Below, piece after piece: positions 921 to 19,409 of a stretch of DNA of 64,000 bases. Made by a program: the position numbers and the translations under genes. Source of the DNA: Haladaptatus sp. QDMS2. GTDB taxonomy: Archaea; Halobacteriota; Halobacteria; Halobacteriales; Halococcaceae. The notes below the pieces were generated by a model that saw only the letters and a list, made by a program, of their open reading frames with translations, made no database searches and was not told where the DNA came from. The stretch is from positions 248,001 through 312,000 of the forward strand of contig NZ_CP119791.1 of NCBI RefSeq assembly GCF_029338295.1. The letters run 5' to 3'. Each line of letters opens with the position of its first letter. Positions within the stretch are counted from its first letter, which is position 1.

Positions 921-1005
921 TGCGTGCTTGCGCTGGCGTTTGCGGACATCGCCGTCACCGTGACCCACCGATGAACAGTGCATGGCTCGAAGCGAGTAGC
1001 CGACG

Positions 1006-1015
1006 TATAACGAAG
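1006..1015 (+). promoter_or_regulatory. TATAACGAAG promoter-like element upstream of flippase 1
   Basis: TATAACGAAG is preceded by GTAG six nt earlier. The same GTAG-N6-YATAACGAAG arrangement occurs upstream of the paralogous flippase at 8214-8223, in sequence that otherwise differs. It lies about 110 nt from the ATG, so it is either a promoter with a leader or a regulatory site. Confidence 0.4.
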
Positions 1016-1124: not shown

Positions 1125-2654
1125 ATGTCTGCACGCAACGATAACCTCCTCGCACTCCTTGCAAGCTCTGCGCTCGTCTTCCTCGGAGTTGGGCTCTCCT
1201 CTGTGTCTCGGTTCGCAGAACGCATCATCATCGCCCGCGCATTTACTCCCGCGGTGTACGGTGAGGTGACCCTCGGCCTCGCCATCATGTCTATCGGTAT
1301 TACTATTGCGCTCGTTGGCCTGAACCATGGGATGCCGCGGTTCGTCTCGCGCTACGACGACGACCGTGACATCCGGGGTGTCTGGCTCGTTGGCTTTTGT
1401 TTTTCGTTGCTTACCAGTTTGGTTTTGGCTGGTCTCATCTTCCTGAACCTCGATTTCATCACCACGTACCTTTTCGACGACGCTGTGTCGACCGACCTGC
1501 TCACCATCTTCATCTTGCTTATTCCGGTGAACGTCGCGGTAAACATCGGGGTTGGCTTCCTGCGTGGGATGGAGAACACGAAGTACAAATTCTACGCAGA
1601 AGACCTCATCCGCCCTGGCGTTCGGTTGCTATTGCTCATCGTCATTCTTGGTGCGGGGTTCTCTATCATCGCCGTTGGCTACGCCTACGCCATCGCCTCG
1701 GTGCTCGGACTGTTCGTCGTCCACTACTTCGCAAACCGTCTCGTCCCCCTGTTCGGGCCGGTCAAAACGCATACACGAGAGATCGTTGTCTATTCACTCC
1801 CGCTCACGCTCGCGATGTTCCTCACCGTGTTGCTCACGCAGATGGACACGCTCATGGTGGGCTTTTTCCGCTCTTCGACCGAGGTCGGCCTCTACAACGC
1901 CGCCTACCCGCTCGCCAGCAGCCTCCTGCTGTTTATCTCCGCGTTTGGCTACCTGTATCTCCCTATCGTCTCCCGACTCGACGCCGATGGAAACTATGCG
2001 GAAATCTCCTCGATTTACCAAGTCACGACGAAATGGGGCTTTATCGCGTCCTTTCCGCCGTTTCTGGCTGTCTTCATCTTTTCAGACGACATCTTGTCGA
2101 TGCTCTTCTCCCCGGAATACGCCCCTGCTGGGCTTGCCCTTACTATTCTCTCGCTTGGCTTCTTGACGGACGCGGCAATGGGTCACAATCGGACGACGCT
2201 CGCGGCACTTGGCTACACGACCCACATGCTGTTTGCCGACATCATCACGCTCACACTCAATCTCGTGTTGAACATTTTCTTGATTCCACGCTACGGGTTT
2301 GCGGGTGCGGCCGTCGCCACCTCTGCGGCGTACGTCGCGCGGAATCTGGTCGTGTATCTCGTGTTACGGCTGAAGTTCGGCATCACGCCGTTTTCGCGCA
2401 TCACCACGACGACGTATCTCGTCGTCCCGCTTGTTCTCGTGCCGATTTCGTATCTCCTCTCGACGGTCATGACGATGACGCCAGTCTCGTTCGTCGCCTT
2501 CGTCATCGGAATTGGCCTCGCAGAACTCGTCATCATCACGGTCGCTGGCTGCCTCCAGCCAGAGGACGCCGTCTTCATCGAATTCCTCGAAAAACGGACT
2601 GGTAAAGAACTCACGTTCGTTCGCAACCATCTTCCACGAATACCCGAAGAGTGA
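1125..2654 (+). CDS. Polysaccharide/oligosaccharide flippase (MOP superfamily, AglR-like), copy 1
   Basis: This is a 509-residue polytopic membrane protein with about 12-14 hydrophobic segments, the usual size for Wzx/RfbX-type flippases of the MOP exporter superfamily. These move lipid-linked sugars across the membrane, and AglR of Haloferax is the studied haloarchaeal relative. The N-terminus contains the family-like stretch RYDDDRDIRGVWLVG and, further on, NHGMPRFVSR. It is highly similar throughout to the protein at 8292-9821, with blocks of identical DNA, for example around 1800-1915. The ATG start is supported by alignment of MSARNDNLL with MSTRNDNLL of the paralogue. Function in surface-glycan export is inferred from family and neighbours. 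Confidence 0.9.
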   Translation: MSARNDNLLALLASSALVFLGVGLSSVSRFAERIIIARAFTPAVYGEVTLGLAIMSIGITIALVGLNHGMPRFVSRYDDDRDIRGVWLVGFCFSLLTSLVLAGLIFLNLDFITTYLFDDAVSTDLLTIFILLIPVNVAVNIGVGFLRGMENTKYKFYAEDLIRPGVRLLLLIVILGAGFSIIAVGYAYAIASVLGLFVVHYFANRLVPLFGPVKTHTREIVVYSLPLTLAMFLTVLLTQMDTLMVGFFRSSTEVGLYNAAYPLASSLLLFISAFGYLYLPIVSRLDADGNYAEISSIYQVTTKWGFIASFPPFLAVFIFSDDILSMLFSPEYAPAGLALTILSLGFLTDAAMGHNRTTLAALGYTTHMLFADIITLTLNLVLNIFLIPRYGFAGAAVATSAAYVARNLVVYLVLRLKFGITPFSRITTTTYLVVPLVLVPISYLLSTVMTMTPVSFVAFVIGIGLAELVIITVAGCLQPEDAVFIEFLEKRTGKELTFVRNHLPRIPEE

Positions 2655-2742
2655 CGGCCTTCGCTGCAAGACCCGCGTGGATACTCACACCCAGTTTCGA
2701 GTCCTGTCCCGGTCGGCCACATTGCGCACTCGGATACCGTTC

Positions 2743-3363
2743 CTATTTTCGGTAGCAATTGGTAGTGGCCCGTGCAAAACGAGTCTCACCACGCATCGCT
2801 GGGCTTGGTGCGGAAGGGTTGCTACTGTTGGTTTTCGTCTGTGTCGGGGTGACAGCGGGCGCTATCAAGTACCACCTGCCACCAGCAATCACCTCACTCG
2901 ACTGTCCGGTAACCGCGATTGGCGCAGTACCGAACGCGAGACGCGAGCCACCGGCAGCATCGAACGCTGCCGAGGATCGCGAAGCGCAGCTTCGCTCACC
3001 AGCAGAACGGCTTGCTGGCACGATTTCAAAGTCCCCGATATACGAGGACGTGAAATCGTAGTCCAGCGAAGCCGAATCACTGAAGAACACGCGAGCCACG
3101 TTCACCGCACCAACGTCGTCTCGGTCGGCTTGATAGCCACATCGAGCATTGTCACAGGAGAAGTGTCCGCCCCACCACACTTCGTGAGAGTGGTCTGGCG
3201 ACTTCGTGGTGTGTTCCGTAGAGCCACATCGAGGGCACGAGCGAGACGTGTTAGGCTACCCTGCTTCAACTCACGGCGTGGCCCAGAAACGGATGTTCAC
3301 AAACCGAACTGCTGGAAACTCACCCTGCTCCCGTAGTTCGTGAAACTTCCCGTGTACGGACAG
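2743..3363 (-). pseudogene. Broken tnpB (IS1341/IS605-type) 3' remnant
   Basis: On the minus strand the reading frame gives the C-terminal part of a TnpB-type RNA-guided nuclease. It contains KFHELREQGEFPAVRF and then the zinc ribbon CPRCGS (3222-3237) paired with CDNARCGYQADRDDVGAVN, which carries the final conserved Asp. Two in-frame stops interrupt it, TGA at 3271-3273 and TAG at 3256-3258, and the upstream RuvC lobes are missing, so it is not functional as a protein. The tail after the zinc ribbon contains short inverted repeats, which in this family overlap the guide-RNA scaffold. It is a decayed insertion between the flippase and the membrane-protein gene. No matching tnpA or complete element end was seen nearby. 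Confidence 0.8.
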
Positions 3364-5214
3364 TCACGTAGAGCGCAGTAGGTAGACGCGCACGTCACCA
3401 TTCGAATGAACTTGTCCGATACCAGGAGTCGTGTTGAGCGCATCGAACCCCGCTTCTGGGAAGCGGACTCCTTGGTACAGTTGGATCTCTCGTTGGGGGG
3501 TCGCCTCTGAGAAAATGATGTACCGGTCTATCGAGTAGTATTCCGTCAGATTACCCGCTGCGAATGCCGATTTCGGGACTTCTGCGTTCGCGCCGGGTAC
3601 CGATTTCCCTTCGTCTGTCGCGGACGTCCCATAGATGGCCTGGACGTATCGTTCCCGTCCATTGTTGATTCCGGTAATCGGAATTGACGAATCCTGATAG
3701 TCGAAGGCGGTTTTGTACCCGTGGAACGCACTCTCGCTTACGTGCGACGTCGGCTGATAGATGAACGGTGAGGAGAACAACGTCACCGTACCTAACGGCA
3801 ACATGAGGACGAACGCGACGACGACAACCGTTCGCAAGACACGAGCTGACGTTCGCTGCGTGAGCCACTCGAAGCCCCACGCGAGCATGACCGCTCCGAG
3901 AATCGTGAGCAATACCATGACAAAGCCGAGATAGCGGAAGCGCTGGGTCGACCCCTGTAGCAACGAGAACAGCAGGAACATCCCGAAAAGCGGCACCATC
4001 GAGAGCGTGAAATACCGGATAATGCTATCACCAACGGGATACGAGCCCTGGAATCGCCGACCGAGGCTCAACAGCATGACGAGACCGGCGAGGACGGCAA
4101 AGACGAAGCTGAGCAAGAACAGCTTTGCGAACAACTCGGGAAGGCTGCCACCGATTGCAGCAAGTGTCGACTCGCGCTGGGCGATTGCACTGCTCGAGGA
4201 CACGCCGTAGAACACTGCGTTGATAATTGTCTCGACCGTGCCAGTCGTACGTGGATACCGCGGTGCCCAGAGTAAGAAGATAGTGATGAAGTACACCGTG
4301 TGTGCGTAGAGCGGGCGGTGGTTGCTGATGGCGTGTTCGCTGCGCAGCTGCCGGAATACGAGCTGTAAGAACGCAATCGAGACGTAGATGAGGATGACGT
4401 TGCCAGCCACCTGCGGGTGGATGAGCAAGATCGCCGCGAGCGCCACCACGAGCAGCACTCCAGACGGATTTATCGAAAGTCGCCATACAGAGACCGACGG
4501 TTCTTGTTGCGTGAGATAGCGAACGGTGAGGTAGAGCACGAGTGGGAGGTAGAGAATCGCCTCCGTGCTCGGGTGTGCCATCAGATGAACGCTGATGTTG
4601 TTGATGGGCAGTGCGAGCAGTGCGGAGAACACGCCGAACAGGAGGGCGTGTTTGGTTTTGGCGATGAGGTGGACGGTCAGCCCCGTAAAGAGGACAAACG
4701 AGACGAAGTAGGCAAGCACGAGGAACTCCGTCGCTCGTTCGAGGGACATCCCGGCGACCTGCGCGATGAACAACATCGCGGTGTGGATGCCCGGATACAG
4801 GAAATTGAGGGGGCTGAGCGCGCCACTTTCGATGTCGCGCATCCACCCAAGGTGAGTGAGCGAGTCGCCCGCGCCGACGAAGAAGTAGCCGCGAATGATC
4901 GGGAGCGCCGCAACCGCGACGATGGCACTTGCCACGAGGAGTATCGCGAGGGTTCGAATCCGGTTCGTTGGTGTGACAAACCAGGCAACGAGCAGTCCAC
5001 AAACGACGGCGATACCGATACCTGCCCAGAACCCATCTGGCGTGGCGGCGTAAATCGAGACTTCGTAGGCTGTTGCGGGCGATTGATAGGCGCTCACAAT
5101 TGCGAGATAGAGTGCGACGAACCCCACAATGAGCGCGAATTTACTGGCTCGTATCTGAGTCGAATGATCCTGAGAAATATCTCTGGCCAATCGCTCTCGA
5201 GTGCTATGAGTCAT
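3364..5214 (-). CDS. GT-C-like multi-pass membrane protein, copy 1
   Basis: The 616-residue protein has about 11-13 hydrophobic segments followed by a C-terminal soluble region of roughly 130 residues. Early in the membrane region it has GAGDSLTHLGWM, an acidic/His loop like that of GT-C glycosyltransferases, which use lipid-linked sugars outside the membrane. The tail QVHSNGDVRVYLL is shared with its paralogue at 13374-15266. The start MTHSTRERLARD (5214) is chosen over a longer in-frame extension because the paralogue begins at the equivalent place. A CATAACAAAA element lies 36 nt upstream. No family could be named with certainty. A role as a glycan polymerase or glycosyltransferase is inferred from fold-like features and context. 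Confidence 0.75.
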   Translation of the reverse strand: MTHSTRERLARDISQDHSTQIRASKFALIVGFVALYLAIVSAYQSPATAYEVSIYAATPDGFWAGIGIAVVCGLLVAWFVTPTNRIRTLAILLVASAIVAVAALPIIRGYFFVGAGDSLTHLGWMRDIESGALSPLNFLYPGIHTAMLFIAQVAGMSLERATEFLVLAYFVSFVLFTGLTVHLIAKTKHALLFGVFSALLALPINNISVHLMAHPSTEAILYLPLVLYLTVRYLTQQEPSVSVWRLSINPSGVLLVVALAAILLIHPQVAGNVILIYVSIAFLQLVFRQLRSEHAISNHRPLYAHTVYFITIFLLWAPRYPRTTGTVETIINAVFYGVSSSSAIAQRESTLAAIGGSLPELFAKLFLLSFVFAVLAGLVMLLSLGRRFQGSYPVGDSIIRYFTLSMVPLFGMFLLFSLLQGSTQRFRYLGFVMVLLTILGAVMLAWGFEWLTQRTSARVLRTVVVVAFVLMLPLGTVTLFSSPFIYQPTSHVSESAFHGYKTAFDYQDSSIPITGINNGRERYVQAIYGTSATDEGKSVPGANAEVPKSAFAAGNLTEYYSIDRYIIFSEATPQREIQLYQGVRFPEAGFDALNTTPGIGQVHSNGDVRVYLLRST

Positions 5215-5250
5215 AAGTGTGTGTCTTGGTTCGTATTGCCCTCCTTCGAG

Positions 5251-5260
5251 TTTTGTTATG
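5251..5260 (-). promoter_or_regulatory. CATAACAAAA promoter element of membrane-protein copy 1
   Basis: On the minus strand CATAACAAAA ends 36 nt before the ATG at 5214, with GTAAG five nt further upstream. The paralogous gene at 15266 has the same element at nearly the same distance (34 nt). Confidence 0.55.
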
Positions 5261-5343
5261 GATAGCTTACTCTTGTGTGCACGTACCCTTCGCACAGAGC
5301 GGTTGCGAGAGTTCCGGCAACCCAGTCGGTCGGTGATTGATTC

Positions 5344-5387
5344 GAGGAGAACGCCCACGACTTTAGTCGTGGGAGGATGTCAACAAG
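5344..5387 (+). mobile_element. Solo IS200/IS605-type right end with hairpin
   Basis: A perfect 8-bp stem CCCACGAC / GTCGTGGG (5354-5361, 5366-5373) with TTTA loop is followed by AGGATGTCAAC. This is the conserved right-end structure of haloarchaeal IS1341/IS605-type elements and the 3' scaffold of the TnpB guide RNA. No tnpA or tnpB lies beside it, so it is an orphan end. It sits between two glycan genes, 7 nt from the 3' end of the GT4 gene. Confidence 0.65.
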
Positions 5388-5393
5388 AATTGC

Positions 5394-6389
5394 TCAGCGC
5401 TTCGAGAGAACGTGTTCATACACCTCATGAATGCGCTTTCCCATCCGTTCTGCACTCATCTCGTGGATAACCTTCTCTCTGCTCTCGGGTCGTTTGCCTG
5501 ATTCGATAATCGAGAGCAACCCGTCGATGAGTTCTTCGTCGGTCTCGCCTACCGTGGATGGCGAGATACCTTGCAGCTGGTCTCTAAGGTCTCCAACTGC
5601 CGCAGCGACGACGGGGAGGTTGCAGGCGAGGGCTTCTTTCGTTGCGTTTGGCGACCCCTCGCGTTTTGAGGTGAGCAACAGCACATCTGCTGCGTTCATG
5701 TAGAGGGGCATTTGCTCATGTGGAACGCGGTACACCGTTTGCAGATTGAGTGTTCCGTCGAACTGTTCACGGGCAGCGCCAACGATGCGTTCTGCTCGTG
5801 GAAAATTCTTGACTTCCTTCGATGCCGCGTAGGGAAAGAGTACGTAGGTCGCGTCCTGGTCCCAGCCGAGTGCCTCTCGTGCCTCGCCACGGTCTATCGG
5901 CTTGAATCGCGTCGTGTCGACGCCGTGTGGGATAATGTGACAGTCCCGTCCGAGTTCGTCGGCCATCTCCTGGGACATGACGATAACGGCGTCTGCATAT
6001 CTCGCGCAGAGTTTGCTGATTGGGCCGAACGTCCCCATCAGGTCGGACCCCCACAGCGACAACACCACCGGGAGGTTCGGCTGGAACACGGCGCCTGGTG
6101 CGGTCAGCCCGGAGTTGGCGTGAATGAGGTCGTAATCGCCGAACGATTCCTTCGTTGCACTGCTGAAAAAGCGAATATAGTCGGTCACTGGGCGCGTTTC
6201 CGCCTTCTCGTTGGTCTTCGGACGCTTTGGAGAGACAGCGAGGGTTGTACACGCGATGCCACGCTGTTCAAGAGAGCGAACTTGCTGTCTGAAGAACGTC
6301 GATTCGCGACTCGTCACGAGGTTCAGAACCCGGAGCTGTTCGTCGTGTCCTTCAGTTACCATGCGTGCCGGTCGGGTTTGATGCGCCAT
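5394..6389 (-). CDS. Glycosyltransferase family 4, copy 1
   Basis: This 331-residue GT-B-fold glycosyltransferase has the N-terminal domain pattern LRVLNLVTS and HANSGLTAPGAV. The hinge region carries HGVDTTRFKPID, and the GT4 donor-site signature is TSKREGSPNATKEALAC with the conserved glutamates. It has no membrane segments and should add a sugar to a lipid-linked or nucleotide-linked acceptor on the cytoplasmic side. It is the paralogue of the protein at 16754-17749, with long identical DNA runs in the middle (about 6000-6150 against 17350-17500). The sugar is unknown. Confidence 0.9.
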   Translation of the reverse strand: MAHQTRPARMVTEGHDEQLRVLNLVTSRESTFFRQQVRSLEQRGIACTTLAVSPKRPKTNEKAETRPVTDYIRFFSSATKESFGDYDLIHANSGLTAPGAVFQPNLPVVLSLWGSDLMGTFGPISKLCARYADAVIVMSQEMADELGRDCHIIPHGVDTTRFKPIDRGEAREALGWDQDATYVLFPYAASKEVKNFPRAERIVGAAREQFDGTLNLQTVYRVPHEQMPLYMNAADVLLLTSKREGSPNATKEALACNLPVVAAAVGDLRDQLQGISPSTVGETDEELIDGLLSIIESGKRPESREKVIHEMSAERMGKRIHEVYEHVLSKR

Positions 6390-6610
6390 TAGTTATGTAC
6401 TCTCCACAGCTGTGGCTTGGTCGCCAATCGTTTGCGGACTGTGTTTGATTTTAGGTCCACATCGGGTGTTTGAACTGACTACGGCTGACTGAATGGTGGC
6501 AGCGTCGGCAGTTATCGACGACGTGCTTCCTGTCATGACCGCTGGTGGCGGCTGACTCTCTCACAGCCTGTGCAAACCTCTCTAAACCGCTGGTGGCGAC
6601 ACGTGACTGA

Positions 6611-6627
6611 CATACTGACAGTCTGCC
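6611..6627. promoter_or_regulatory. 15-bp quasi-palindromic element, copy B
   Basis: CATACTGACAGTCTG on the plus strand contains the odd palindrome ACTG-A-CAGT. It lies 31 nt downstream (minus-strand sense) of the CATAACAAAA element. The same place upstream of the DUF354 gene (18943-18957) carries the exact reverse complement inside similar flanks. Confidence 0.45.
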
Positions 6628-6656
6628 GTTCACGGTGGCATTACACCTCATTATTG

Positions 6657-6666
6657 TTTTGTTATG
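6657..6666 (-). promoter_or_regulatory. CATAACAAAA promoter-like element
   Basis: CATAACAAAAC is preceded on the minus strand by CTCGTCAGGC and a 4-nt spacer, almost exactly as at 18992-19001. The nearest gene in that direction is the GT4 gene starting 267 nt away, implying a long leader or a lost gene between. Confidence 0.45.
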
Positions 6667-6699
6667 AGTCGCCTGACGAGAGCCGTGAAAGGTAGTGTC

Positions 6700-6741
6700 G
6701 GATTCATCCCCGCGCTAAAGCACGGGGCTTTCTCCTTGAAC
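6700..6741 (+). mobile_element. Second solo IS605-type end with hairpin
   Basis: CCCCGCGC (6708-6715), loop TAAA and GCACGGGG (6720-6727) form a stem with one mismatch, followed by CTTTCTCCTTGAAC. This is a common right-end form of haloarchaeal IS605/IS1341 elements. There is no transposase gene beside it. Confidence 0.6.
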
Positions 6742-6977
6742 TTCCGTAATCTCAGACTAACAATTGCGTGGGTCACCCACCAATCGCGTCTCTCGGAGCG
6801 TTCTGTCTCCGTGCGGATTCCTTCGCTATGGAGCCATCTCTGTGTTTACCGCTCTGTGTCGTACTCGCGTCGCGAGTGCCTCATCTCGAAGCGAAAACCG
6901 GTCAGCACCGATTAATTCCATCCGTCAACCGTTAAGATATTCATTCTTAACCTACTGTATCACCACCTTACTATCAT

Positions 6978-8123
6978 ATGGCAATACATGAGAGGAACGC
7001 ACCGCTTGAACCGATGGGTGGGGAGTACACCATCCGTTGGTACGAAGATGGAGATGAAGCCGCGTTCGTTGACCTCTACAATATCGCATTCAGTGGGTGC
7101 AGCCCCGAATGGTTTGACTGGAAATATAAACAGCTCCCGTACGCTGACTTTGTCCCAGTCATTGTCGCCGAAAAAGACGGAGAGATCGGGGGGTTTCGCC
7201 CGGTGTTGCCGCTCCCGATAACAATCGGTGACCGCACCGTCATGTCCATCCAGCTCGTCGACCTGATGGTCCACCCGGACCACCGCCGACAGGGGCTCAT
7301 GACGAAGATGTACGACTGGATGAAATTCGAGTGTTACGACGATTACGCAGTCACGTTCACCTACGCGAACGAAGCGTCTCAGCGTGGTATGCTGAAGATG
7401 AACGATGACATGATAACCTACCACGATCTCGGGCCGTTCATCAATTACAAACGTCTCCAGAATTTGCGGGCACTTACCTCGCCAGCACAGCCTGCTGTCC
7501 TCCGGATTGGCGCACGGGTTGCAAATCCCATTTACCGCCTCAAAAACCGCCTCCAGGACCGACTGAAACTCATCGACAAGAGCATCACGGTCACACGCCA
7601 CGATACAGTCCGCCCCGACATTCTCGTCGAGATTTATGAATCTATTACGACAGATCAACCACACCTGAAGCGTGACGAAACCCTCTACGAGTGGCGATTC
7701 GATGAACCAGACAAGGAGTTCGTGATGTACTCTTCGAGCCGAAATGGCGTCAGAGATGCGGCTATCGTTGTCGGTGTCAATACGGATTCGGCTGGAATCA
7801 AAAGCGCACACCTTACCGAAGTGCTGCCGCTCGCGGGAGGAGAGGTCCTCGGCGCGTCCTTCTCGAGTCTTCTCGCACGTATCATGAAGGATTTCGACGA
7901 TGTGGATATTATCTCTGCAACGGCGAGCACTATCCCACACCGCGTCCTCTCGGCCTATGGATTCCTCCGCTCTGATTCGGTCTTCCTCTCGCCGTTCACC
8001 GACGGTGCGTGGTTCCTCGTTGGCCTCCTCGGCGCGCCCGAGGCGGCAGACCCGGAAATCGCACGCACGCTCATCGCAGAGACCGGCTGGAACACGACCT
8101 TCTGTGAACGACTGCTCGGCTGA
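6978..8123 (+). CDS. GNAT-fold N-acetyltransferase-like protein
   Basis: This 381-residue protein has an N-terminal GNAT domain: after YTIRWYEDGDEAAFVDLYN comes the acetyl-CoA loop LMVHPDHRRQGLMTKM (about residues 92-107), the R-x-x-G-x pattern typical of the family. The C-terminal half looks like a second, degenerate acetyltransferase-like lobe. A TTCTTAAC box about 29 nt upstream of ATG is consistent with a near-leaderless transcript. It lies upstream of flippase 2 in the same direction with a 168-nt gap. N-acylation of an amino sugar of the glycan is a reasonable guess from context. Confidence 0.8.
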   Translation: MAIHERNAPLEPMGGEYTIRWYEDGDEAAFVDLYNIAFSGCSPEWFDWKYKQLPYADFVPVIVAEKDGEIGGFRPVLPLPITIGDRTVMSIQLVDLMVHPDHRRQGLMTKMYDWMKFECYDDYAVTFTYANEASQRGMLKMNDDMITYHDLGPFINYKRLQNLRALTSPAQPAVLRIGARVANPIYRLKNRLQDRLKLIDKSITVTRHDTVRPDILVEIYESITTDQPHLKRDETLYEWRFDEPDKEFVMYSSSRNGVRDAAIVVGVNTDSAGIKSAHLTEVLPLAGGEVLGASFSSLLARIMKDFDDVDIISATASTIPHRVLSAYGFLRSDSVFLSPFTDGAWFLVGLLGAPEAADPEIARTLIAETGWNTTFCERLLG

Positions 8124-8213
8124 GCTGCCATCGTCGCTCCTCGCAGCTGTTTTCTGTTGCTGTGGGGTCCACATAACGCTGTGTTCTGAGCCGGTTCCAA
8201 TCGGTAGTCGACC

Positions 8214-8223
8214 CATAACGAAG
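8214..8223 (+). promoter_or_regulatory. CATAACGAAG promoter-like element upstream of flippase 2
   Basis: CATAACGAAG with GTAG six nt upstream mirrors the element before flippase 1 (1006-1015). It lies 68 nt from the ATG at 8292. Confidence 0.4.
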
Positions 8224-8291
8224 CCCCGATTCGACCTGTAGAAGAGTAGATCGCGACGATACGGGACCACCCAGTCGTCGCCCCTTTGAGT

Positions 8292-9821: not shown

Positions 9822-10179
9822 CGTCGTACAACGAGCGGTCTGGGCAGTCGATTTCTACAGAGAAAACAAGGCGAGTGCCTCGGGGTCGTCCGAAACGGCG
9901 CAGCCGCTTCGTGATAACGAGAGACCGGAGGTCGCTCGACTACTTGCCCTCGAGGTACTTCACACGCTATCCATTCGCGTTAGAGCAACCACGAACTCGA
10001 GCCACAGAACTGTTGTTGAAACCGAATGTAGAGGGCTTCATCTGCGTTGACTCGATCTCGAGGAACAGTTCGTCGTTCGGCTCACCGGGACAATCCAGAC
10101 AGAACAAATAGTATCGCAGCGTGTACTTGTGTCTGACCTGCTATCTCAATATCCGTCACACCAGTTGAAAACCGTCCGC
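9822..10179. other. 358-nt gap with possible decayed coding sequence
   Basis: No intact gene is seen. The minus strand from about 10125 down to about 9860 reads as a protein-like segment beginning KYTLRYYLFCLDCPGEPNDE, broken by stops, with codon-like composition. It could be a remnant of a deleted gene, but no family was recognised. Confidence 0.3.
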
Positions 10180-11532
10180 TCAGCGCGGGAGGCTGATGGT
10201 CACGTTTTCGCTCACGAACTCAGATTGGTCGACGACCACCGGGATTTTCGTCACGGCAATCTCGACGTTTCGCAACAGCGTGTTGTTCGCTCGCAGCAGG
10301 TGGAAGCCGTCGCGGTTCGCCCCCGACTGGACGATGCTCACGTCTTCGAACACGCAGTTATCGCGGTCGACGATGCGGATGGCGGCGTCGCCCCTCGCGT
10401 CGCCTCGTATCCTGACTGACTCACAGTGGATACTTCCATCACTGTTGTTGCTATCGAGGGTCTTCGCGTGAATCCCGGGGACGCCGTCTGCGGAAGTGAT
10501 GATCTGCGTGTTGCGAATCGTCGCAGATTCCATGAGTGATTCGATGACGATTGCGCCCTCGCTGTAGGTCACGTCGAAAATCTCGATGGTGCAATCTTCG
10601 ACGAGGACGGACGCCCCGTTGCGCAGCCGAATTCCGCGCATATTCTGAAATCCTGGAGGCGATGCATCGCACAGAATGTACACGCCTCTGACCACGGCTG
10701 GACTGCTCACGCGGACGTTTGCAATCCCGTTGTTCTGGTAGAACCCACCGATGACGTTAATCGGCCCGACCGAACTCGAGGCGTAGAGTCCATTGTTTGG
10801 GAATCCAATGATGTGGCAGTCTTTGAAGGTGAGCTCCCCGTGGTTATCTGGTCCCACGAAACAGCCTGCCGGGAACGCGTCCATATCACCGTCGTTGTGC
10901 AGTTGGAGGCGCTCTACGAGTCCCGACCCCGACGGATCGGTCACACTGAAGCGCGCTGTTCCACTGGAGCCAATTGCAATAATGTCCTTGATGAGGAGCC
11001 CGTCGGTGACTGCGACTTGGAGCGGACGGGGTGACGTGTTCGGCTCGCTGAAATCGAATCGAATACCGGCGAACAGAAACGACGTTGCCACAGGCTCTCG
11101 GATGGAGCCGATATTGAACAAGTATCTGTCGTATCCGGCTGGTGGAACGATAATGGCACTGTTGCCGACGATACCGAAATTCTCGAAGGCACGCAGTTCC
11201 CAGATGTCGTCCATCAGGTATCGCCCATGTGGGAAGTACAGGGCCGTGTTTGAGCCAGCGTGCTCGGTGAGCAAGGGAAGGATCGATTCGGTTCCAGTTG
11301 GGTCAGCGCCGACGTCGACCATGTTCACGACCGTTTCGAACTGACTCAAATCGTAGGGCAGTGGCCGTGGTGTGGGTTCGGGTGGCTGTTGGGTAGGTGT
11401 CGTGTCTGGGGTTTCGGTCACCTGCGGTGGCGTCCGATTGAACGAACACCCTGCAAGCGCCCCCGCGACGGCGAGCGACCCGAGTCGCAGGACATCGCGG
11501 CGGCTGGGTCGAATCCCAGACTGTTCTGTCAT
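10180..11532 (-). CDS. Tat lipoprotein with right-handed beta-helix (pectate-lyase-like) domain
   Basis: The 450-residue protein starts with a Tat signal (SRRDVLRLGSLAVAGALAGC) ending in a lipobox Cys. A Pro/Thr linker follows, and then a domain opening with VDVGADPTGTES and YFPHGRYLMDD, typical of pectate-lyase-like right-handed beta-helix proteins. Many short repeats rich in N, G and V run to the C-terminus. It should be exported folded and anchored to the outer membrane face. The start at 11532 is preferred over 11538 because a TATAACAAAA box then lies about 28 nt upstream, as in leaderless haloarchaeal genes. It may bind or cleave the polysaccharide made by neighbouring genes. No catalytic residues could be assigned. 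Confidence 0.8.
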   Translation of the reverse strand: MTEQSGIRPSRRDVLRLGSLAVAGALAGCSFNRTPPQVTETPDTTPTQQPPEPTPRPLPYDLSQFETVVNMVDVGADPTGTESILPLLTEHAGSNTALYFPHGRYLMDDIWELRAFENFGIVGNSAIIVPPAGYDRYLFNIGSIREPVATSFLFAGIRFDFSEPNTSPRPLQVAVTDGLLIKDIIAIGSSGTARFSVTDPSGSGLVERLQLHNDGDMDAFPAGCFVGPDNHGELTFKDCHIIGFPNNGLYASSSVGPINVIGGFYQNNGIANVRVSSPAVVRGVYILCDASPPGFQNMRGIRLRNGASVLVEDCTIEIFDVTYSEGAIVIESLMESATIRNTQIITSADGVPGIHAKTLDSNNSDGSIHCESVRIRGDARGDAAIRIVDRDNCVFEDVSIVQSGANRDGFHLLRANNTLLRNVEIAVTKIPVVVDQSEFVSENVTISLPR

Positions 11533-11555
11533 GCTCATAGATTCGCGAGAATTCG

Positions 11556-11565
11556 TTTTGTTATA
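11556..11565 (-). promoter_or_regulatory. TATAACAAAA box of beta-helix lipoprotein gene
   Basis: TATAACAAAA is centred about 28 nt before the ATG at 11532, the usual TATA position for a leaderless haloarchaeal transcript. This supports reading the recurring YATAACAAA motif as a core promoter element. Confidence 0.55.
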
Positions 11566-11679
11566 GCGCGGCTAACGCTGCAAAAGGCCACAGACACCCA
11601 GTGTAGCCTACATCTTAGAGCGCAGTCGGCGCTGGTGACAGTCTCGTATTTCCCTCACGACCAACCGAAAAAACGTGCC

Positions 11680-13260
11680 TTATTCGATGTAACCGAGTCC
11701 ACGCAGACGGTTCTCGACGTCGGTGAAGTCGTCGCTGACCGTGGCGACGGCCGCGTTCCTCGCGTACGTCCCCGTTCTGACGGCCGTCTTTCCGGGTGTC
11801 GAATCGGGCGTGAAGATCTCTGCGAGCACCCGTCCGTCGGTGTGCTCTGGGATTGACTCTCCGAGGCCGTGGAGGACTGTCGGTGCGACGTCGTATACGG
11901 TTGCCTCACGCGTCCGCGCACCGGCTTGCACGTCGGCTCCCCACGCGAAGAAGATACCTTCAGGAAGGTGGTTGGCTGCCATCTTGGTCGGCGAGATGAT
12001 GTCGCCGCTGAGCGCCGCAGAGATATCGTAGCCGGGCCGGGGTTCGACGACGAGGTCCGGCGAGTCGGGGTCGGTGGGGAACAGGTCGTCCCCGTCGAAC
12101 ACCTCAACCATCTGGTCGCCGGTTTCGGGGTCAGTGACCGCCTCGAACAGCGCCTTGACCTGCCGTTTGACGGCGGGCACTTCGACGGGGTCTACGACAC
12201 CTTCGAGGAACCTGTGTGTGTCGTTTACGTACACCTCGCCGAGCGCGTAAACGAACGCCGTCGTCTGTGAGTAATCAACGTCGAACAGCGGGTGGTCGCC
12301 CGGAATCTGCTTTGCCACCTGCGTCGTGAACGACTGGGGCAGGTAATCGACGACCATCTCCTCGTCGATGCCGACTTTCCCGAGCGCGCCCATCACGCCG
12401 TCTTTGGTGACGCCAAGGCGAGAGAGTGCGCCGCGAACGCCGCGCTGTTTGCGGGGTTCAAGGAGCCCCTCTTGTTCCAGCAACACGTTCAGGGCGACCC
12501 GCTTGTGAACCGGACCGAAGCCGTGGTCGGAGACAACGTAGAGCGTTGCGTCTCGTTCTTTGGTGTACGCCATGACCTCGCCGAGGATGTCGTCTAAGGT
12601 CTGGTAGTGGGCGAGCAACACGTCGTCGTCCCAGATGAGGTGCTGGAGGCGGTCGGGGGCGGTGTAGACGAAGAAGAACAGCCGCCAATCCTCTCGCTCC
12701 ATGAGCAGGCGCATCAGCTCGCGACGGTTGTGAACGAGCGTCCCGAGGTCCGTGAGGAACTGCTCTTTCGCGTTGTAGTACTGACTCCAGTTGAGCGCGA
12801 TGCGGTACTCGGGAATCCGGGCGACGAGCTCGTCACAGAACGCTGGTGGATAGGTGAATCCGGGGCCAATCTGTGGCGTCATCATCCCGGCGACGATGAT
12901 GCCGTCTATCTCGCGAGCCGGGTACGTCATCGGGACGTTGCCAACGAGTGCCGGCGAAACCATATCCCAGAGTGCCGGGTACTGCAGGTCGTTGCCCGTG
13001 TACACCTGATGGGTGTAGTTTTCGGTGAGCCGTCGGAACCCGTAGATGCTGTGTTTGTCCGGGCGAACGCCCGTCGCGATCGAAGGCCACGCGAGCGGCG
13101 TCGTCGCAGGGGTGGTGCTGTCGAGCGAACCTGCCGCGCCGTCTGCCATAAGCGTCGCGAAATGTTCGAGCTCTCCTGCTTCGACCCACTGTTCGATAAG
13201 ATACCACGGAACGCCGTCTAAGCCGAGGACGAACGCTCTCGTTTGAGTTTGTTGGTTCAT
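11680..13260 (-). CDS. Alkaline-phosphatase-superfamily phosphodiesterase/nucleotide pyrophosphatase-like enzyme
   Basis: This 526-residue protein belongs to the type I phosphodiesterase/nucleotide pyrophosphatase branch of the alkaline phosphatase superfamily. Metal-ligand motifs are visible: GLDGVPW near residue 14, a nucleophile region TTPATTPLAWPSIATG (about 43-60), TAPDRLQHLIWDDD, and SDHGFGP with a later His-containing loop. There is no signal peptide, so it is probably cytoplasmic. Such enzymes are common in archaeal glycan clusters, but their substrates are mostly unknown. A phosphodiester or phosphosugar intermediate is plausible here. A CATAACAAAA motif lies 97 nt upstream. Confidence 0.85.
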   Translation of the reverse strand: MNQQTQTRAFVLGLDGVPWYLIEQWVEAGELEHFATLMADGAAGSLDSTTPATTPLAWPSIATGVRPDKHSIYGFRRLTENYTHQVYTGNDLQYPALWDMVSPALVGNVPMTYPAREIDGIIVAGMMTPQIGPGFTYPPAFCDELVARIPEYRIALNWSQYYNAKEQFLTDLGTLVHNRRELMRLLMEREDWRLFFFVYTAPDRLQHLIWDDDVLLAHYQTLDDILGEVMAYTKERDATLYVVSDHGFGPVHKRVALNVLLEQEGLLEPRKQRGVRGALSRLGVTKDGVMGALGKVGIDEEMVVDYLPQSFTTQVAKQIPGDHPLFDVDYSQTTAFVYALGEVYVNDTHRFLEGVVDPVEVPAVKRQVKALFEAVTDPETGDQMVEVFDGDDLFPTDPDSPDLVVEPRPGYDISAALSGDIISPTKMAANHLPEGIFFAWGADVQAGARTREATVYDVAPTVLHGLGESIPEHTDGRVLAEIFTPDSTPGKTAVRTGTYARNAAVATVSDDFTDVENRLRGLGYIE

Positions 13261-13357
13261 GATATATGACTGCTTGAAAGTCGCCGTTCGCGTCGTCTCA
13301 TAGACGGAGCGAAGCGGTTCTCCCGCGTGTTCGTGATTGCAATTCAGCCGGATTTCA

Positions 13358-13367
13358 TTTTGTTATG
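13358..13367 (-). promoter_or_regulatory. CATAACAAAA element upstream of phosphodiesterase gene
   Basis: Minus-strand CATAACAAAA, with GTAATT a few nt upstream, lies between the 3' end of the membrane-protein gene and the phosphodiesterase gene, 97 nt from its ATG. Its downstream flank AATCCGGC is shared with the copy at 18992-19001. Confidence 0.45.
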
Positions 13368-13373
13368 CGCGAA

Positions 13374-15266
13374 TTACGCACTCATCGTCGAATTCTGACT
13401 CTGGTTAGCCTCCGTATTCTGGTGGAGTAAGTAGACGCGAACGTCACCGTTCGTGTGCACCTGTGCGATGTCTGGCGTCGAATCCAGGTGGTTGAATCCG
13501 GCTTCCGAGTAGCGCACCCCTTTGTACACGTCGAGTTCGAGTTGCGTGTTGACGTCACTGAAGATGATGTACCGACTCTCGTCGTAGTAGTTCAACAGCG
13601 TGCCGCCGTCGAACGCATTCTTTTCCACCACCGCGGACGACCCGGGAACGAAGTCGTCTTCGTTCACGAACGGCGTCCCGTAGTACGCGTGAACGAACCG
13701 CTCTGGGCCGGCCTGAATACCAGTGTACGGAACGTTCATCGCCTGATAGTCGAAGGCGGTCTCGTAGCCGTGCATCTGCATCTCCGTGACCTGTTGTGAC
13801 GGCTGGTAGATATACGGCGATGCAAACACCGTCATCGTGCTCAGCGGTAACAGGACCACGAACACGAGGACTGCGACCGTTCCGAGCGTGCGCGTAGAGG
13901 TGCGCTGTGAGAGTCGGTCGAACGCCCACGACAGCATGACTGCCCCGAGGATGGTGATGAGCACCATGATGAAGCCAAGATAGCGGAAGCGCTGGGTCGA
14001 CCCCTGTAGCAACGAGAACAGCAGGAACATCCCGCCGAGTGGAATCATCGAGAGCGTGAGATACTTGATGATGCCGTCACTGGACGGGAACGACCGCTCG
14101 AACGTCTTTCTTAAGTTCAGCCCCATGAGCAGCGCGGCGAGCGCAAGGAAGACGGCGCTCACGAAGAACAGCTTTACGAACAGCTCTCCGAGGCTGCCAC
14201 CGATTGCCGCGAGTGAGGCACCGCGCTGGTCGATGGCGCCGGTCTCCGTGACGCCGAACAGGATGGCGTTGACGATGGTGTCGAGCGTCTGGGTGGTGCG
14301 CGGGTTGCGCGGTGCCCAGAGTAAGAAGATGGTGATGAGATACACCGTGTGTGCGTAGAGCGGGCGGTGGTTGCTGATGGCGTGTTCGCTGCGCAGCTGC
14401 CGGAACACCAGTTGTAAGAACGCAATCGAGGCGTAGATGAGGATGACGTTGCCAGCCACCTGCGGGTGGATGAGCAAGATCGCCGCGAGCGCCACCGCCA
14501 GGAGAATCGCAGACGGCGTAATTGAGAGCCGCCCGACCGAGATAGCCCCCTCTGTGTTCGTCAGATAGCGAACGGTGAGGTAAAGCACGAGTGGGAGGTA
14601 GAGAATCGCCTCCGTGCTCGGGTGTGGCTGTAAGTGGACGCTGATGTTGTTAATTGGTAACACGAGCAGGGCGGAGAACACACCGAACAGGAGGGCGTGT
14701 TTGGTTTTGGCGATGAGGTGGACAGTCAGTCCCGTAAAGAGGACAAACGAGACGAAGTAGGCGAGCACGAGGAACTCTGTCGCTCGTTCGAGGGACATTC
14801 CAGTGACCTGCTTGATGAACAACGTAGCGGTGTGAATCCCTGGGTAGAGGAAGTAGACGGGATTGAGGACGCCGTTTTGGATATCTTTCATCCACCCGAG
14901 GTGAGTGAGCGCATCGCCCGCGCCGACGAAGAAGTAGCCCCGAATGATCGGGAGCGCCGCAATCGCGACGAGCACCACGACAGCGAGCGCGAGCGCGAGC
15001 TTTCGCAGGTGATTCTCGGGGGATACCCACCACGAAACGGTGAGTGCCACGAGCATCGCGATGGCCATACCGGCCCAGAAGGCGAGCGGCGTCGCGTCGT
15101 AAATCGAGATTTCGTAGGCTGTTGCGGGTGCATTGTACGCTGACACGAGGCCGACGTAGAGTGCGACGAACCCCACAATGAGCGCGAATTTGCTCGTGCG
15201 CCCCCTCGATTGGGCGTGCTCTGCGGGGTAGTCAGTAGTCTGTGGCTGGCGGATGGATCGAGTCAT
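13374..15266 (-). CDS. GT-C-like multi-pass membrane protein, copy 2
   Basis: The 630-residue protein is the paralogue of the one at 3364-5214: the same topology, the same acidic/His loop GAGDALTHLGWM, and the same C-terminal QVHTNGDVRVYLL. Blocks of near-identical DNA (for example about 14290-14500 and 14600-14800) alternate with diverged ones, particularly in the C-terminal soluble domain. It is predicted to sit in the cytoplasmic membrane with its C-terminal domain outside. The C-terminal divergence suggests different acceptor or donor specificity between copies. Exact activity is unknown. Confidence 0.75.
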   Translation of the reverse strand: MTRSIRQPQTTDYPAEHAQSRGRTSKFALIVGFVALYVGLVSAYNAPATAYEISIYDATPLAFWAGMAIAMLVALTVSWWVSPENHLRKLALALAVVVLVAIAALPIIRGYFFVGAGDALTHLGWMKDIQNGVLNPVYFLYPGIHTATLFIKQVTGMSLERATEFLVLAYFVSFVLFTGLTVHLIAKTKHALLFGVFSALLVLPINNISVHLQPHPSTEAILYLPLVLYLTVRYLTNTEGAISVGRLSITPSAILLAVALAAILLIHPQVAGNVILIYASIAFLQLVFRQLRSEHAISNHRPLYAHTVYLITIFLLWAPRNPRTTQTLDTIVNAILFGVTETGAIDQRGASLAAIGGSLGELFVKLFFVSAVFLALAALLMGLNLRKTFERSFPSSDGIIKYLTLSMIPLGGMFLLFSLLQGSTQRFRYLGFIMVLITILGAVMLSWAFDRLSQRTSTRTLGTVAVLVFVVLLPLSTMTVFASPYIYQPSQQVTEMQMHGYETAFDYQAMNVPYTGIQAGPERFVHAYYGTPFVNEDDFVPGSSAVVEKNAFDGGTLLNYYDESRYIIFSDVNTQLELDVYKGVRYSEAGFNHLDSTPDIAQVHTNGDVRVYLLHQNTEANQSQNSTMSA

Positions 15267-15300
15267 AGCTGTGCGTTACCTGTCATAGCCTCGCAGTCAG

Positions 15301-15310
15301 TTTTGTTATG
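15301..15310 (-). promoter_or_regulatory. CATAACAAAA promoter element of membrane-protein copy 2
   Basis: CATAACAAAA ends 34 nt before the ATG at 15266, with GTAAG five nt upstream. This is essentially the same layout as for copy 1 at 5251-5260. Confidence 0.55.
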
Positions 15311-15406
15311 GGTCTCTTACCACACCTCTCGGGCGAGCGACTGGCTCGGGAGTCGGATTCGGTGGAAGAGCGGACCCGTATCGATTCTTGGGGTGGGAAC
15401 GCTGTC

Positions 15407-15415
15407 TATAACAAT
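15407..15415 (+). promoter_or_regulatory. TATAACAAT box of polysaccharide deacetylase gene
   Basis: TATAACAAT is centred 34 nt upstream of the deacetylase ATG on the plus strand. It lies back to back with the divergent CATAACAAAA element at 15301-15310. Confidence 0.5.
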
Positions 15416-15444
15416 ACGACTGGCACGCGGAGATATGCCAACGA

Positions 15445-16416
15445 ATGCTACAGTTAACCTCACAGGGGACCACGCCAGTAGGCGGCGCAGAACGGGTGGT
15501 GTCTGCGGGCGAATCGTCCTCGACCGACCCCACGTTCTGGCTGTGTCTCACCCACGACGTAGACCGGCCGTACAAGGGCTACCAGTCGCTCTACTACGCG
15601 CTCAAACAGCGCGACCCGTACCACCTGCAAACGCTCCTGCCGAACGTCAACCCGTACTGGCAGTTTGAGAACATCATGGCCCTAGAGGAGTCGCTCGGGG
15701 TCCGCTCTGCGTTCTACTTCCTGAACGAGAAACGCCTGTTCCGGGACAAACCGCCCCGTGAGTGGCTCAACCCGAAGAGCTGGCAGCTCTACGCCGGGCG
15801 CTATGACATCCACGACCCGGCCATCGTCAACGTCATCCGACGGCTCGACGAGGGGGGCTGGGAGGTCGGCCTCCACGGCTCGTACGACTCGTACAACGAC
15901 TTCGAACGTCTCAAATTCGAAAAGGAGACGCTCGAAGCCATCCTCGGCCACGAAATCGTCGGCGGCCGCCAACACTACCTGAACCTAGAGATTCCAACGA
16001 CGTGGGAGTACCACCGGGAACTCGGCCTCAAATACGACGCCTCGCTCGGGTCGAGCAGCGAGTACGGGTTCGACCACGGCTACGACGTCCACCGCCCGTT
16101 CGACGACGACTTCGTCGTGTTCCCGCTCGCCTACATGGAAAACGCGATTCCCGATCCCGGCGTGGACTTCGAGTTCGCCTGGCAGGAGTGCAAGCGCGTC
16201 CTCGACGAAGCGTACGAAAACCGCGCCGTCATGACCATCCTCTGGCACCCGATGAAGTTTGCAGCGCGCGACTTCCCCGGCCAGCGAGAACTCTACCAGC
16301 GCATCATCGAGTACGCCCAGGCGCTCGGCGCGTGGGTCGGCCCACCGGGGGAGCTTTATGCGCAGCGCTCGGCGCGATTTGAAGCCGAGGTTGCACCTGA
16401 CCGGGCGCGGTCATAG
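15445..16416 (+). CDS. Polysaccharide deacetylase (NodB-like) family protein
   Basis: The 323-residue protein carries the NodB homology motifs: the metal/catalytic THDVD near residue 35, and the His-containing EVGLHGSYDSYND about 100 residues later. A later HPMKF segment probably supplies the last His. These enzymes remove N- or O-acetyl groups from polysaccharides. There is no export signal, so it likely acts on intracellular lipid-linked sugars, unlike secreted bacterial relatives. It is the only plus-strand gene in this part of the cluster and has its own TATAACAAT box. Confidence 0.85.
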   Translation: MLQLTSQGTTPVGGAERVVSAGESSSTDPTFWLCLTHDVDRPYKGYQSLYYALKQRDPYHLQTLLPNVNPYWQFENIMALEESLGVRSAFYFLNEKRLFRDKPPREWLNPKSWQLYAGRYDIHDPAIVNVIRRLDEGGWEVGLHGSYDSYNDFERLKFEKETLEAILGHEIVGGRQHYLNLEIPTTWEYHRELGLKYDASLGSSSEYGFDHGYDVHRPFDDDFVVFPLAYMENAIPDPGVDFEFAWQECKRVLDEAYENRAVMTILWHPMKFAARDFPGQRELYQRIIEYAQALGAWVGPPGELYAQRSARFEAEVAPDRARS

Positions 16417-16452
16417 GCGACGCATTTTCCAGTCGAATGGCTCTGCTGAACG

Positions 16453-16638
16453 TTAGACGGGAAGTCCCTTTTTGTAGACTATCCAGTACGAGAGAGGAAT
16501 CGTTATCAGCAGAATTACTGGAATGGTACGAACCTGAGTGAACGGGTCCGGAGGAGTCAGCATGGCACCAACGCCAAAACCGAGGCTGACCAGCAACACA
16601 GAGACGATTAGAAACTGCGTCCACAACCGTTGGTTCAT
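16453..16638 (-). CDS. Small two-TM membrane protein
   Basis: The 61-residue protein starts MNQRLWTQFL and has two hydrophobic segments separated by a short loop LTPPDPFTQVR, a pattern seen in small haloarchaeal membrane proteins of unknown function. The start at 16638 is chosen because an ATATATAT box lies about 24 nt upstream, consistent with a leaderless transcript. The longer in-frame start 14 codons earlier would overlap that box. Nothing points to a specific role. Confidence 0.65.
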   Translation of the reverse strand: MNQRLWTQFLIVSVLLVSLGFGVGAMLTPPDPFTQVRTIPVILLITIPLSYWIVYKKGLPV

Positions 16639-16753
16639 ATGTAGAATATGTTGTTTGATATATATTACTCTGTCCCACACGCTGCTGAAAACTCACTCTC
16701 TGTCAAACACCTCAACTGAAACCGCTGGTCACAATTCCACCGACGAAGAAACC

Positions 16754-17749
16754 TCAGTTCGCTTCGAGCACTTGCTCGTAGACGGCGTGGATGCGTTCGG
16801 CCATCGACTCGAGGCTCATCGTCTCGATTGCCCACTGTCTGCTCTCCGGGAGGTGGTCTGCGGTCAACAGCGCCAGGAGGCCCTCGGTGAGTTCCTCGTC
16901 CGTGTTGGCGATGACGGCTGAGCCAACACCGCCGAGTTGCTGCTGGATGTCGCCGACGTCCACCGAGACGACGGGCAGGTTGCAGGCGAGGGCTTCTTTC
17001 GTCGCGTTCGGTGACCCCTCGCGCTTGGAGGTGAGCAACATCACATCTGCTGCGTTCATGTACAGTGGCATATTCTCGTGTTCGACTTTGAACACGGTTT
17101 GCAGGTGGATGTCTCTGCCGAGGCGCTCTTGCGCGGCCGTCACGACGCGCTTTGCCCGCGGGTAGTCTTTGATTTCCCGGGAGGCTGGATAGGGAAAGAG
17201 TACGTACGTCGCGTCCTGGTCCCAGCCGAGTTGTTCGCGGGCGACCGCTTTGTCCATCGGGCGAAACAGCTCGGTGTTGACGCCGTGGGGGATGACATGA
17301 CAGTCCATCCCGAGTTCGTCGGCCATCTCCTGGGACATGACGATGACAGCATCGGCTCGCCGTGCGCAGAGTTTGCTGATCGGGCCGAACGTCCCCATCA
17401 GGTCTGACCCCCACAGCGACAACACCACCGGGAGGTTCGGCTGGAACACCGCGCCTGGTGCGGTCAGCCCGGAGTTGGCGTGAATGAGGTCGTAATCGCC
17501 GAACGATTCCTTTATCGCGCTGCCGTAGAACCGAACGTAGTCGGTCGGAGGGCGGGTCTCTTTGATATCGTCTGTCATCAAGCGCATCTCTGAGACGCCG
17601 AAGTCCGTACAGTCGACGCCCCGTTGTTCTAATGCGTGAACCTGCTGTTTGAAAAACGACGCCGATGGGCTCGTCACGAGGTTCAGGACGCGAAGTGGCC
17701 GATTTCTCTTTTCGATGGACAGCGACTGTGCCGACGTGTGTTTAATCAT
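16754..17749 (-). CDS. Glycosyltransferase family 4, copy 2
   Basis: The 331-residue GT-B protein is the paralogue of the one at 5394-6389 and has the same length. It shows HANSGLTAPGAVFQPN, HGVNTELFRPMD and the donor-site motif TSKREGSPNATKEALAC. Its 5' end overlaps the stop of the upstream DUF354 gene by 4 nt (ATGA), so the two are probably translated together. DNA identity with copy 1 is highest in the middle third. It should transfer a sugar on the cytoplasmic side, and the sugar is unknown. Confidence 0.9.
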   Translation of the reverse strand: MIKHTSAQSLSIEKRNRPLRVLNLVTSPSASFFKQQVHALEQRGVDCTDFGVSEMRLMTDDIKETRPPTDYVRFYGSAIKESFGDYDLIHANSGLTAPGAVFQPNLPVVLSLWGSDLMGTFGPISKLCARRADAVIVMSQEMADELGMDCHVIPHGVNTELFRPMDKAVAREQLGWDQDATYVLFPYPASREIKDYPRAKRVVTAAQERLGRDIHLQTVFKVEHENMPLYMNAADVMLLTSKREGSPNATKEALACNLPVVSVDVGDIQQQLGGVGSAVIANTDEELTEGLLALLTADHLPESRQWAIETMSLESMAERIHAVYEQVLEAN

Positions 17750-18858: not shown

Positions 18859-18940
18859 CGGTCAGTCTCCTGTCCACTGGCGAGCTGGTAGCGCGAAGCT
18901 TCACTCGAATTCCACGTCCACTGTTGCTGACATCGTGACT

Positions 18941-18957
18941 GCCAGACTGTCAGTATG
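18941..18957. promoter_or_regulatory. 15-bp quasi-palindromic element, copy F (inverted)
   Basis: On the minus strand this reads CATACTGACAGTCTG followed by GCAGTCACGATGTCAGC. At 6611-6625 the corresponding minus-strand sequence is CAGACTGTCAGTATG followed by TCAGTCACGTGTCGCC. The core is therefore reversed within conserved flanks. Confidence 0.45.
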
Positions 18958-18991
18958 ATACTCATGTTGGTGATGCTACGCCGGATTTTTG

Positions 18992-19001
18992 TTTTGTTAT
19001 G
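18992..19001 (-). promoter_or_regulatory. CATAACAAAA element upstream of DUF354-GT4 operon
   Basis: CATAACAAAAC is preceded by GTCAGGC-N4 and lies 133 nt from the ATG at 18858. Its flanks closely match the copy at 6657-6666, implying a common origin of the two upstream regions. Confidence 0.5.
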
Positions 19002-19409
19002 TGTGGCCTGACGAGGCACGAAAGCCGGGTTTAACGTTCTTTTTATCGCGACTGTCGTCAATCAAAGCCGATTTCCATCACTCACACGCGCGTGAAAAGT
19101 AGCATACAGTGACCGTCACCACTGCAGATATCGGTCCGCAACACGGCCAATTCGACTGTTTTACCGGCGAGTGGTCATCAATCCTACCGCTTTGAAACGC
19201 ACTGCACGGGCGGGTGTTGACACAAAAGTTATTCCAAATCGCAAATGCCAGTATTTCCCGAAATTCTGCAAATAGAGGCTATGAGGCGGTTGATTACGGG
19301 TTGGAATTCATGTATCTGGTCGTGAAAAAATGGTAGTTCGCACGGGGTTGGTTGTAGTTGGTAGTAATTATGCCCGAACTCACTTTAGGTGGACGCAGAT
19401 TCCTCAAAC

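Follow-up and report, generated by a model that had tools for sequence, protein, structure and literature searches.

Two intact sets of three glycan genes

The window analysed here (64,000 nucleotides [nt], positions 248001-312000 of contig C1 in the 3.88-Mb, three-contig genome of Haladaptatus sp. QDMS2, the one genome of the species in our sample) carries two intact sets of genes encoding a polysaccharide flippase, a GT-C membrane transferase and a GT4-family glycosyltransferase, in the same order and orientation at 1125-6389 (copy A) and 8292-17749 (copy B). Both flippase genes lie on the plus strand (flipA, 1125-2654; flipB, 8292-9821) and the four transferase genes on the minus strand (gtcA, 3364-5358; gtcB, 13374-15266; gt4A, 5394-6389; gt4B, 16754-17749). 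A duplicated trio had been proposed from a sequence-only reading of this DNA, and the three gene pairs bear it out. Amino-acid identity between the copies is 80% for the flippases, 69% for the GT-C proteins and 66% for the GT4 proteins, with nucleotide identities of 79%, 73% and 70%, respectively.

Two other species of the genus (G001 and G002, hereafter G1 and G2) carry a single set each, which served as the reference. In both, the genes run FkbM-GNAT-flippase-beta helix-phosphodiesterase (PDE)-GT-C-deacetylase-GT4-DUF354, and copy B, whose trio is split by beta-helix, PDE and deacetylase genes, occupies this place with a gene-for-gene match. Because the locus is single-copy in these congeners, copy B is the positional ortholog and copy A an extra block; the latter lies between FkbM and GNAT, is free of such interruptions and lacks the beta-helix, PDE, deacetylase and DUF354 genes, of which, as of GNAT, no convincing coding relic was found in the intergenic DNA of copy A. 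Identity to the congeners, copy A versus copy B, is 84-85% versus 75% for the flippase, 80-82% versus 64-66% for GT4 and 68-69% versus 63-64% for GT-C.

FlipA displays the features of a Wzx-type flippase, namely a Polysacc_synt domain (PF01943, 1.3e-20) in a multi-pass membrane protein. The gt4A product carries Glycos_transf_1 and Glyco_transf_4 domains (Pfam Glyco_trans_1_4 and Glyco_transf_4), that of gt4B gives NCBIfam GT4 matches under their cut-offs, and both contain an E-x7-E motif (EGSPNATKE). Neither GT-C protein belongs to a Pfam family, their relatives giving only weak DUF6541 matches, and a scan of GTDB contigs, a set that may lack very near genomes, returned relatives at 33-34% only. 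An AlphaFold2 model of GtcB built from 23 sequences (mean predicted local distance difference test 82, predicted template-modelling score 0.83) nevertheless has the GT-C transmembrane fold, and the earlier label of "GT-C-like" was thus correct; the fold of GtcA is taken from this model. Across residues 81-618 the model superposes on oligosaccharyltransferases (STT3/AglB/PglB), ArnT and Pmt with Z of about 18-24 (24.3 for the yeast and 23.4 for the archaeal oligosaccharyltransferase, 19.6 for ArnT), although sequence identity to these enzymes is only about 9-13%. Its best fold matches are oligosaccharyltransferases, yet no Pfam or PDB sequence match places it among those of the AglB type. Asp118 of GtcB (Asp165 of GtcA), just past the first core helix, is invariant in the 23 relatives and may be the catalytic acid of the first outer loop. 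The start of gtcA is probably near 5214 rather than at the GTG at 5358, since homology to gtcB and the congeners begins there.

Patchwork of identity between the two sets

In each gene pair near-identical patches alternate, far beyond chance, with stretches saturated at synonymous sites, in agreement with the patchwork first described for this locus. That description went too far in claiming identical blocks of at least 100 nt for all three pairs: only the flippase pair has one (101 nt, plus strand, 1809-1909, matching 8976-9076), the longest reaching 65 nt in GT-C and 62 nt in GT4. Exact blocks of at least 40 nt measure 60, 101, 48, 43, 82 and 57 nt in the flippase pair, 41, 43, 65, 65 and 57 nt in the GT-C pair, and 62 and 44 nt in the GT4 pair. 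Longer tracts combine several of these, with 43 and 82 nt around one mismatch in the flippase (plus strand, 2291-2416, matching 9458-9583), two 65-nt blocks in GT-C (minus strand, 4292-4447, matching 14341-14496), and 44 and 62 nt around one mismatch in GT4 (minus strand, 6046-6152, matching 17406-17512). Segmentation with a hidden Markov model put the longest near-identical tracts at 124 nt in the flippase, 187 nt with seven mismatches in GT-C and 147 nt with three mismatches in GT4, the gain of the two-rate segmentation being 73-112 log units per gene.

In every one of the three genes, silent sites at which A and B agree fall in clusters (window-variance p = 0.0000, 0.0001 and 0.0015 in 10,000 permutations), and for runs of identical synonymous codons the permutation p did not exceed 0.004 in any A-B pair. 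Control pairs of either copy with a congener displayed no clustering except for marginal flippase values (0.04 for B-G2; 0.03 for A-G1 in the runs test). The number of synonymous substitutions per synonymous site (dS) between A and B is 0.02, 0.11 and 0.15 within the tracts of the three genes as against 1.5, 2.2 and saturation elsewhere; between A and the congeners those tracts have a dS of 0.5-1.1, so conservation alone does not account for the patches. Mismatch levels vary from tract to tract (from none in 99 nt up to eight in 98 nt), from which it follows that the exchanges are probably of different age. An old divergence with repeated conversion or recombination thereafter is well supported by these varied tract ages and by a tract-specific identity of A and B that is missing from the comparisons with congeners.

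The long tracts of GT-C map to residues ~100-431 of GtcB, that is, to the membrane core including the conserved outer-loop Asp118, and its C-terminal domain has none. Those of GT4 fall at residues 80-128 and 229-261, and the second stretch includes the E-x7-E motif. Identity to outgroups is higher within tracts than outside them (0.52 versus 0.44, 0.46 versus 0.34 and 0.76 versus 0.44 in the three genes), a placement in more conserved parts that is expected if exchange needs homology, and equally if selection keeps the other parts distinct.

Promoter elements shared by the two sets

The element GACNNATAACRAA occurs in four exact copies in the 3.88-Mb genome, all of them at this locus: upstream of flipA (1002-1014, plus strand), in a promoter relic before gt4A (6658-6670, minus strand), upstream of flipB (8210-8222, plus strand) and upstream of gtcB (15302-15314, minus strand). 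In each congener, two of its three occurrences precede the flippase and GT-C genes. A shorter motif, YATAACRAAR, is found 22 times in the genome as against seven times for the reversed control, with eight of the 22 sites in 18 kb of this locus, counts that are descriptive and carry no test, the motif having first been spotted in an alignment of the same promoters and counted later, and owing part of its recurrence to the shared ancestry of the promoters of the two copies. The eight sites precede flipA, gtcA (5251-5260), gt4A, flipB, the beta-helix gene (11556-11565), the PDE gene (13358-13367), gtcB and DUF354-gt4B (18992-19001), those with coordinates all lying on the minus strand. As GACNNATAACRAA is almost confined to this locus, it may be read by a dedicated regulator.

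Promoter homology has been kept in copy A at the flippase, at GT-C and at the DUF354-gt4 operon. The last of these is a relic upstream of gt4A (6587-6680, minus strand) that matches 18918-19015, in front of DUF354, at 74% identity across 98 nt (E 9e-12). Such relics show that copy A goes back to an operon arrangement of the same kind.

Age of the split and origin of copy A

Outside the tracts, trees of all three genes have the form (B,(A,(G1,G2))), with bootstrap values of 98-100 and Shimodaira-Hasegawa-like approximate likelihood ratio supports of 95-99. The split between A and B, as read from their non-converted parts, is therefore older than that of this species from its two sequenced congeners, G1 and G2. 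Of the "ancient duplication" suggested earlier, the antiquity stands in this sense; a local duplication does not follow, import of copy A fitting equally well. Uniform divergence along the pairs and closer relatives elsewhere for each copy had been named as observations that would speak against local duplication and conversion: divergence proved non-uniform, but non-converted copy A is nearer to the congeners than to copy B. Recent duplication with a fast-evolving copy B was considered but is not supported, as non-tract flipB is slightly nearer to the outgroups than are flipA and the congeners (0.466 versus 0.43) and B branches first in all three trees.

The G+C content at third codon positions (GC3) of copy A is 0.81-0.85 in the long tracts and 0.57-0.69 elsewhere. 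Copy B is genome-like throughout (0.78-0.83), and the tracts resemble it; genes sampled from two other regions of the genome have a GC3 of mostly 0.75-0.85, and the flanking FkbM and GNAT genes one of 0.66-0.67. This pattern suggests that B-type sequence overwrote a copy A of low GC content. Between flipA and gtcA lies the 3' remnant of a tnpB gene of an IS607-type element (2735-3252, minus strand), 85% identical to C1:1750424-1750941 of the same genome. The position and composition of copy A favour arrival over duplication with later losses.

The family from which the tnpB remnant stems is represented in the genome by an intact IS607-type element at C1:1748531-1750934, which encodes a serine recombinase and a TnpB of 595 amino acids. 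A hairpin-like sequence at ~6697-6750, with short 78-91% matches at several genome sites, resembles the right end of an IS200/IS605-type element.

Relative depths of the B-locus genes, calculated with different outgroups for each gene, are 0.27 for DUF354, 0.40 for the deacetylase, 0.74 for gt4B and 0.64-0.67 for PDE and the beta helix, a mixed result as regards whole-segment duplication versus gene-by-gene replacement.

Probable exchange between paralogs and competing explanations

We consider it probable that homologous recombination, in the simplest case intragenomic gene conversion, has moved short tracts between two old paralogous sets. The genome would then hold a lipid-linked glycan module in two paralogous versions, each with a flippase, a GT4 enzyme and a GT-C fold transferase that works from the outer face. 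Set B would hold the ancestral place and set A would be an extra, trimmed set inserted upstream, with the IS607 tnpB remnant as a scar. Away from the patches the two sets would be old paralogs, between which many short tracts, from tens of nt to ~190 nt, would since have passed by homologous recombination, mostly within the conserved catalytic cores, the extracytoplasmic C-terminal domain of GT-C being among the parts left diverged.

Several observations weigh against this explanation. In the strict longest-run test only the flippase reached significance, and the tracts were called and measured on the same data, the permutations of silent-site clustering being independent of the calls. With one genome of the species, recombination with an outside donor is inseparable from intragenomic conversion. 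Conversion tracts between haloarchaeal chromosome copies span kilobases (PMC8223754), far exceeding those seen here. The signals of direction conflict: protein likelihood on outgroup-scaled trees preferred A as the donor in every long tract (+34.9 log units summed over genes), whereas GC3 makes the tracts B-like. Both share an ascertainment bias, as exchange prefers segments that are already similar, and for this reason we assign no direction.

A serious contender, to which we give somewhat less than an even chance, is that copy A came in by horizontal transfer from a source related to the G1/G2 lineage and recombined with resident copy B as it arrived or later, without any duplication at the locus. 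It differs from the exchange between old paralogs described above solely in the origin of copy A, and the confidences placed in the two overlap. The positional orthology of B, the grouping of A with G1 and G2, the IS607 remnant inside block A, and a non-tract GC3 in A below that of most sampled genes, with B typical and the tracts B-like, all agree with an import. The low GC3 is, however, shared by the flanking FkbM and GNAT genes, the likelihood preference for A as donor runs the other way, and neither a GT4 donor nearer than the congeners nor a closer relative or donor of gt4B was found among 392 genomes of the order. DUF354, moreover, is 81% identical to its congener counterparts and its operon partner gt4B 65%, unlike what simple vertical inheritance of the B locus would give. 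In a further explanation, which we hold unlikely, the trio of set B consists of xenologous replacements, alleles of divergent sequence that recombination placed in the resident operon, and the displaced resident set survives upstream as A. In its favour, DUF354 and the deacetylase resemble normal orthologs by their shallow depths, next to a deep gt4B, and xenologous displacement has been described as the commonest result of gene transfer among haloarchaea (PMC5867893). Replacement plus relocation would be needed, however, the PDE and beta-helix genes, which belong to the B locus too, match B in depth, and the depth ratios rest on different outgroups per gene.

Explanations that dispense with recombination fare far worse. 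That uneven protein constraint alone yields identical-looking stretches is scarcely credible: the tracts do fall in more conserved parts, but their dS is far lower between A and B than to the congeners and silent-site clustering is confined to the A-B pair, so that dS and the control pairs rule constraint out as the sole cause of the patches. An assembly artefact, with reads from two strains collapsed or joined into chimeras, might be suspected from the estimated contamination of the genome (2.97%), but is equally hard to credit in a 3.88-Mb assembly of three contigs with all reading frames intact, and assembly would hardly produce many switches across three genes with varied mismatch levels in the tracts.

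Function and comparison with known systems

Outside the tracts, dN/dS relative to the congeners is ~0.08-0.2 for A and 0.2-0.29 for B. With both sets under purifying selection and sharing a promoter element private to the locus, it is likely that each is expressed and that they serve two related glycans. Two export routes for related glycans, as put forward earlier, are plausible in that both sets are intact, constrained and preceded by the same element. More tentatively, and with considerable doubt on our part, the locus may be one of modular exchange, in which two sets are co-regulated through one locus-private element, recombination homogenises their catalytic cores and selection keeps the specificity-bearing parts apart, so that a lineage comes to produce mosaic enzymes and novel glycans on its surface.

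Paralogs that undergo conversion have been described in archaea (mtrA, PMC4632066) and more widely in prokaryotes (PMC6053082), and the locus is an unusually clear instance of a known process, not a new kind. The mtrA-1 and mtrA-2 genes of methanogens are likewise archaeal paralogs, in their case in one operon, of which a shared domain was homogenised by conversion while the other part stayed distinct; there, one gene was converted over deep time in many species, whereas here three linked genes in one genome exchanged short patches. Long-lasting concerted evolution in prokaryotes renders paralogs of one genome more alike than orthologs, often for several genes of a pathway (PMC6053082), whereas here this holds for the patches only, A being elsewhere nearer to the congeners than to B. 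The copepod genes GOT1p1 and GOT1p2 form a mosaic of high and low divergence under apparently ongoing conversion, whose diverged islands were read as possible selection for new functions (PMC3728101), in a eukaryote with population data as opposed to the single archaeal genome available here. Among haloarchaea, gene conversion is very efficient and intermolecular in the polyploid Haloferax volcanii (PMC8223754), where it joins chromosome copies in kilobase tracts, the tracts here being of up to ~190 nt between non-allelic sites; non-allelic conversion seems little documented in this group, the Haloferax work that we located dealing with chromosome copies and kilobase tracts. Surface-glycan and cell-wall islands of Haloferax and Haloquadratum (PMC5867893, PMC4535781) are also haloarchaeal glycan and S-layer loci diversified by homologous recombination, by exchange between strains there and apparently between two sets inside one genome here. 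Exchange between the two sets can be demonstrated cleanly at this locus because the sister species carry one set only. Three linked pairs, single-copy congeners and a background of old divergence make tract length, direction and the avoidance of protein regions measurable, and the locus offers a testable link from recombination to glycan diversity.

Neighbouring genes and further observations

The left flank is an FkbM-family methyltransferase gene (99-920, plus strand; PF05050, 6e-17; 78-79% identity to the congeners, in both of which it adjoins GNAT), and between the copies lies the gene of a GNAT-family acetyltransferase (6978-8123, plus strand; PF13527, 2e-10), directly 5' of the flippase in the congeners. 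Four genes stand beside copy B only: those of a beta-helix protein (10180-11538, minus strand; weak Beta_helix match; 62-64% to the congeners), a type I phosphodiesterase-like protein (11680-13260, minus strand; Phosphodiest, 7e-39; 70%), a polysaccharide-deacetylase-like protein (15445-16416, plus strand; NCBIfam VimE deacetylase, 3e-12, under its cut-off) and a DUF354 protein (17746-18858, minus strand; PF04007, 2e-11; 80-82%), the last overlapping gt4B by 4 nt. An Rfam search of positions 1-24000 of the window gave no match. A third, more distant GT4 gene beside a DUF354 gene (43-46% and 38% identity) is located ~100 kb away at C1:351701-352600. Between DUF354 and a beta-helix gene the congeners carry what by eye resembles an asparagine synthase gene (G001, L035:6735-8519; G002, L037:7036-8895), absent from the window.

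Two tandem beta-helix surface proteins are encoded at 19389-20762 and 21198-23099, where the congeners have one. Their mutual silent identity is clustered (p 0.0076 for the silent codons that both share, with no significance in the controls), making them a second, conversion-like pair. The second protein has three C-terminal repeats of ~90 amino acids (22422-23086), of which the first protein has one and the congeners' proteins several.

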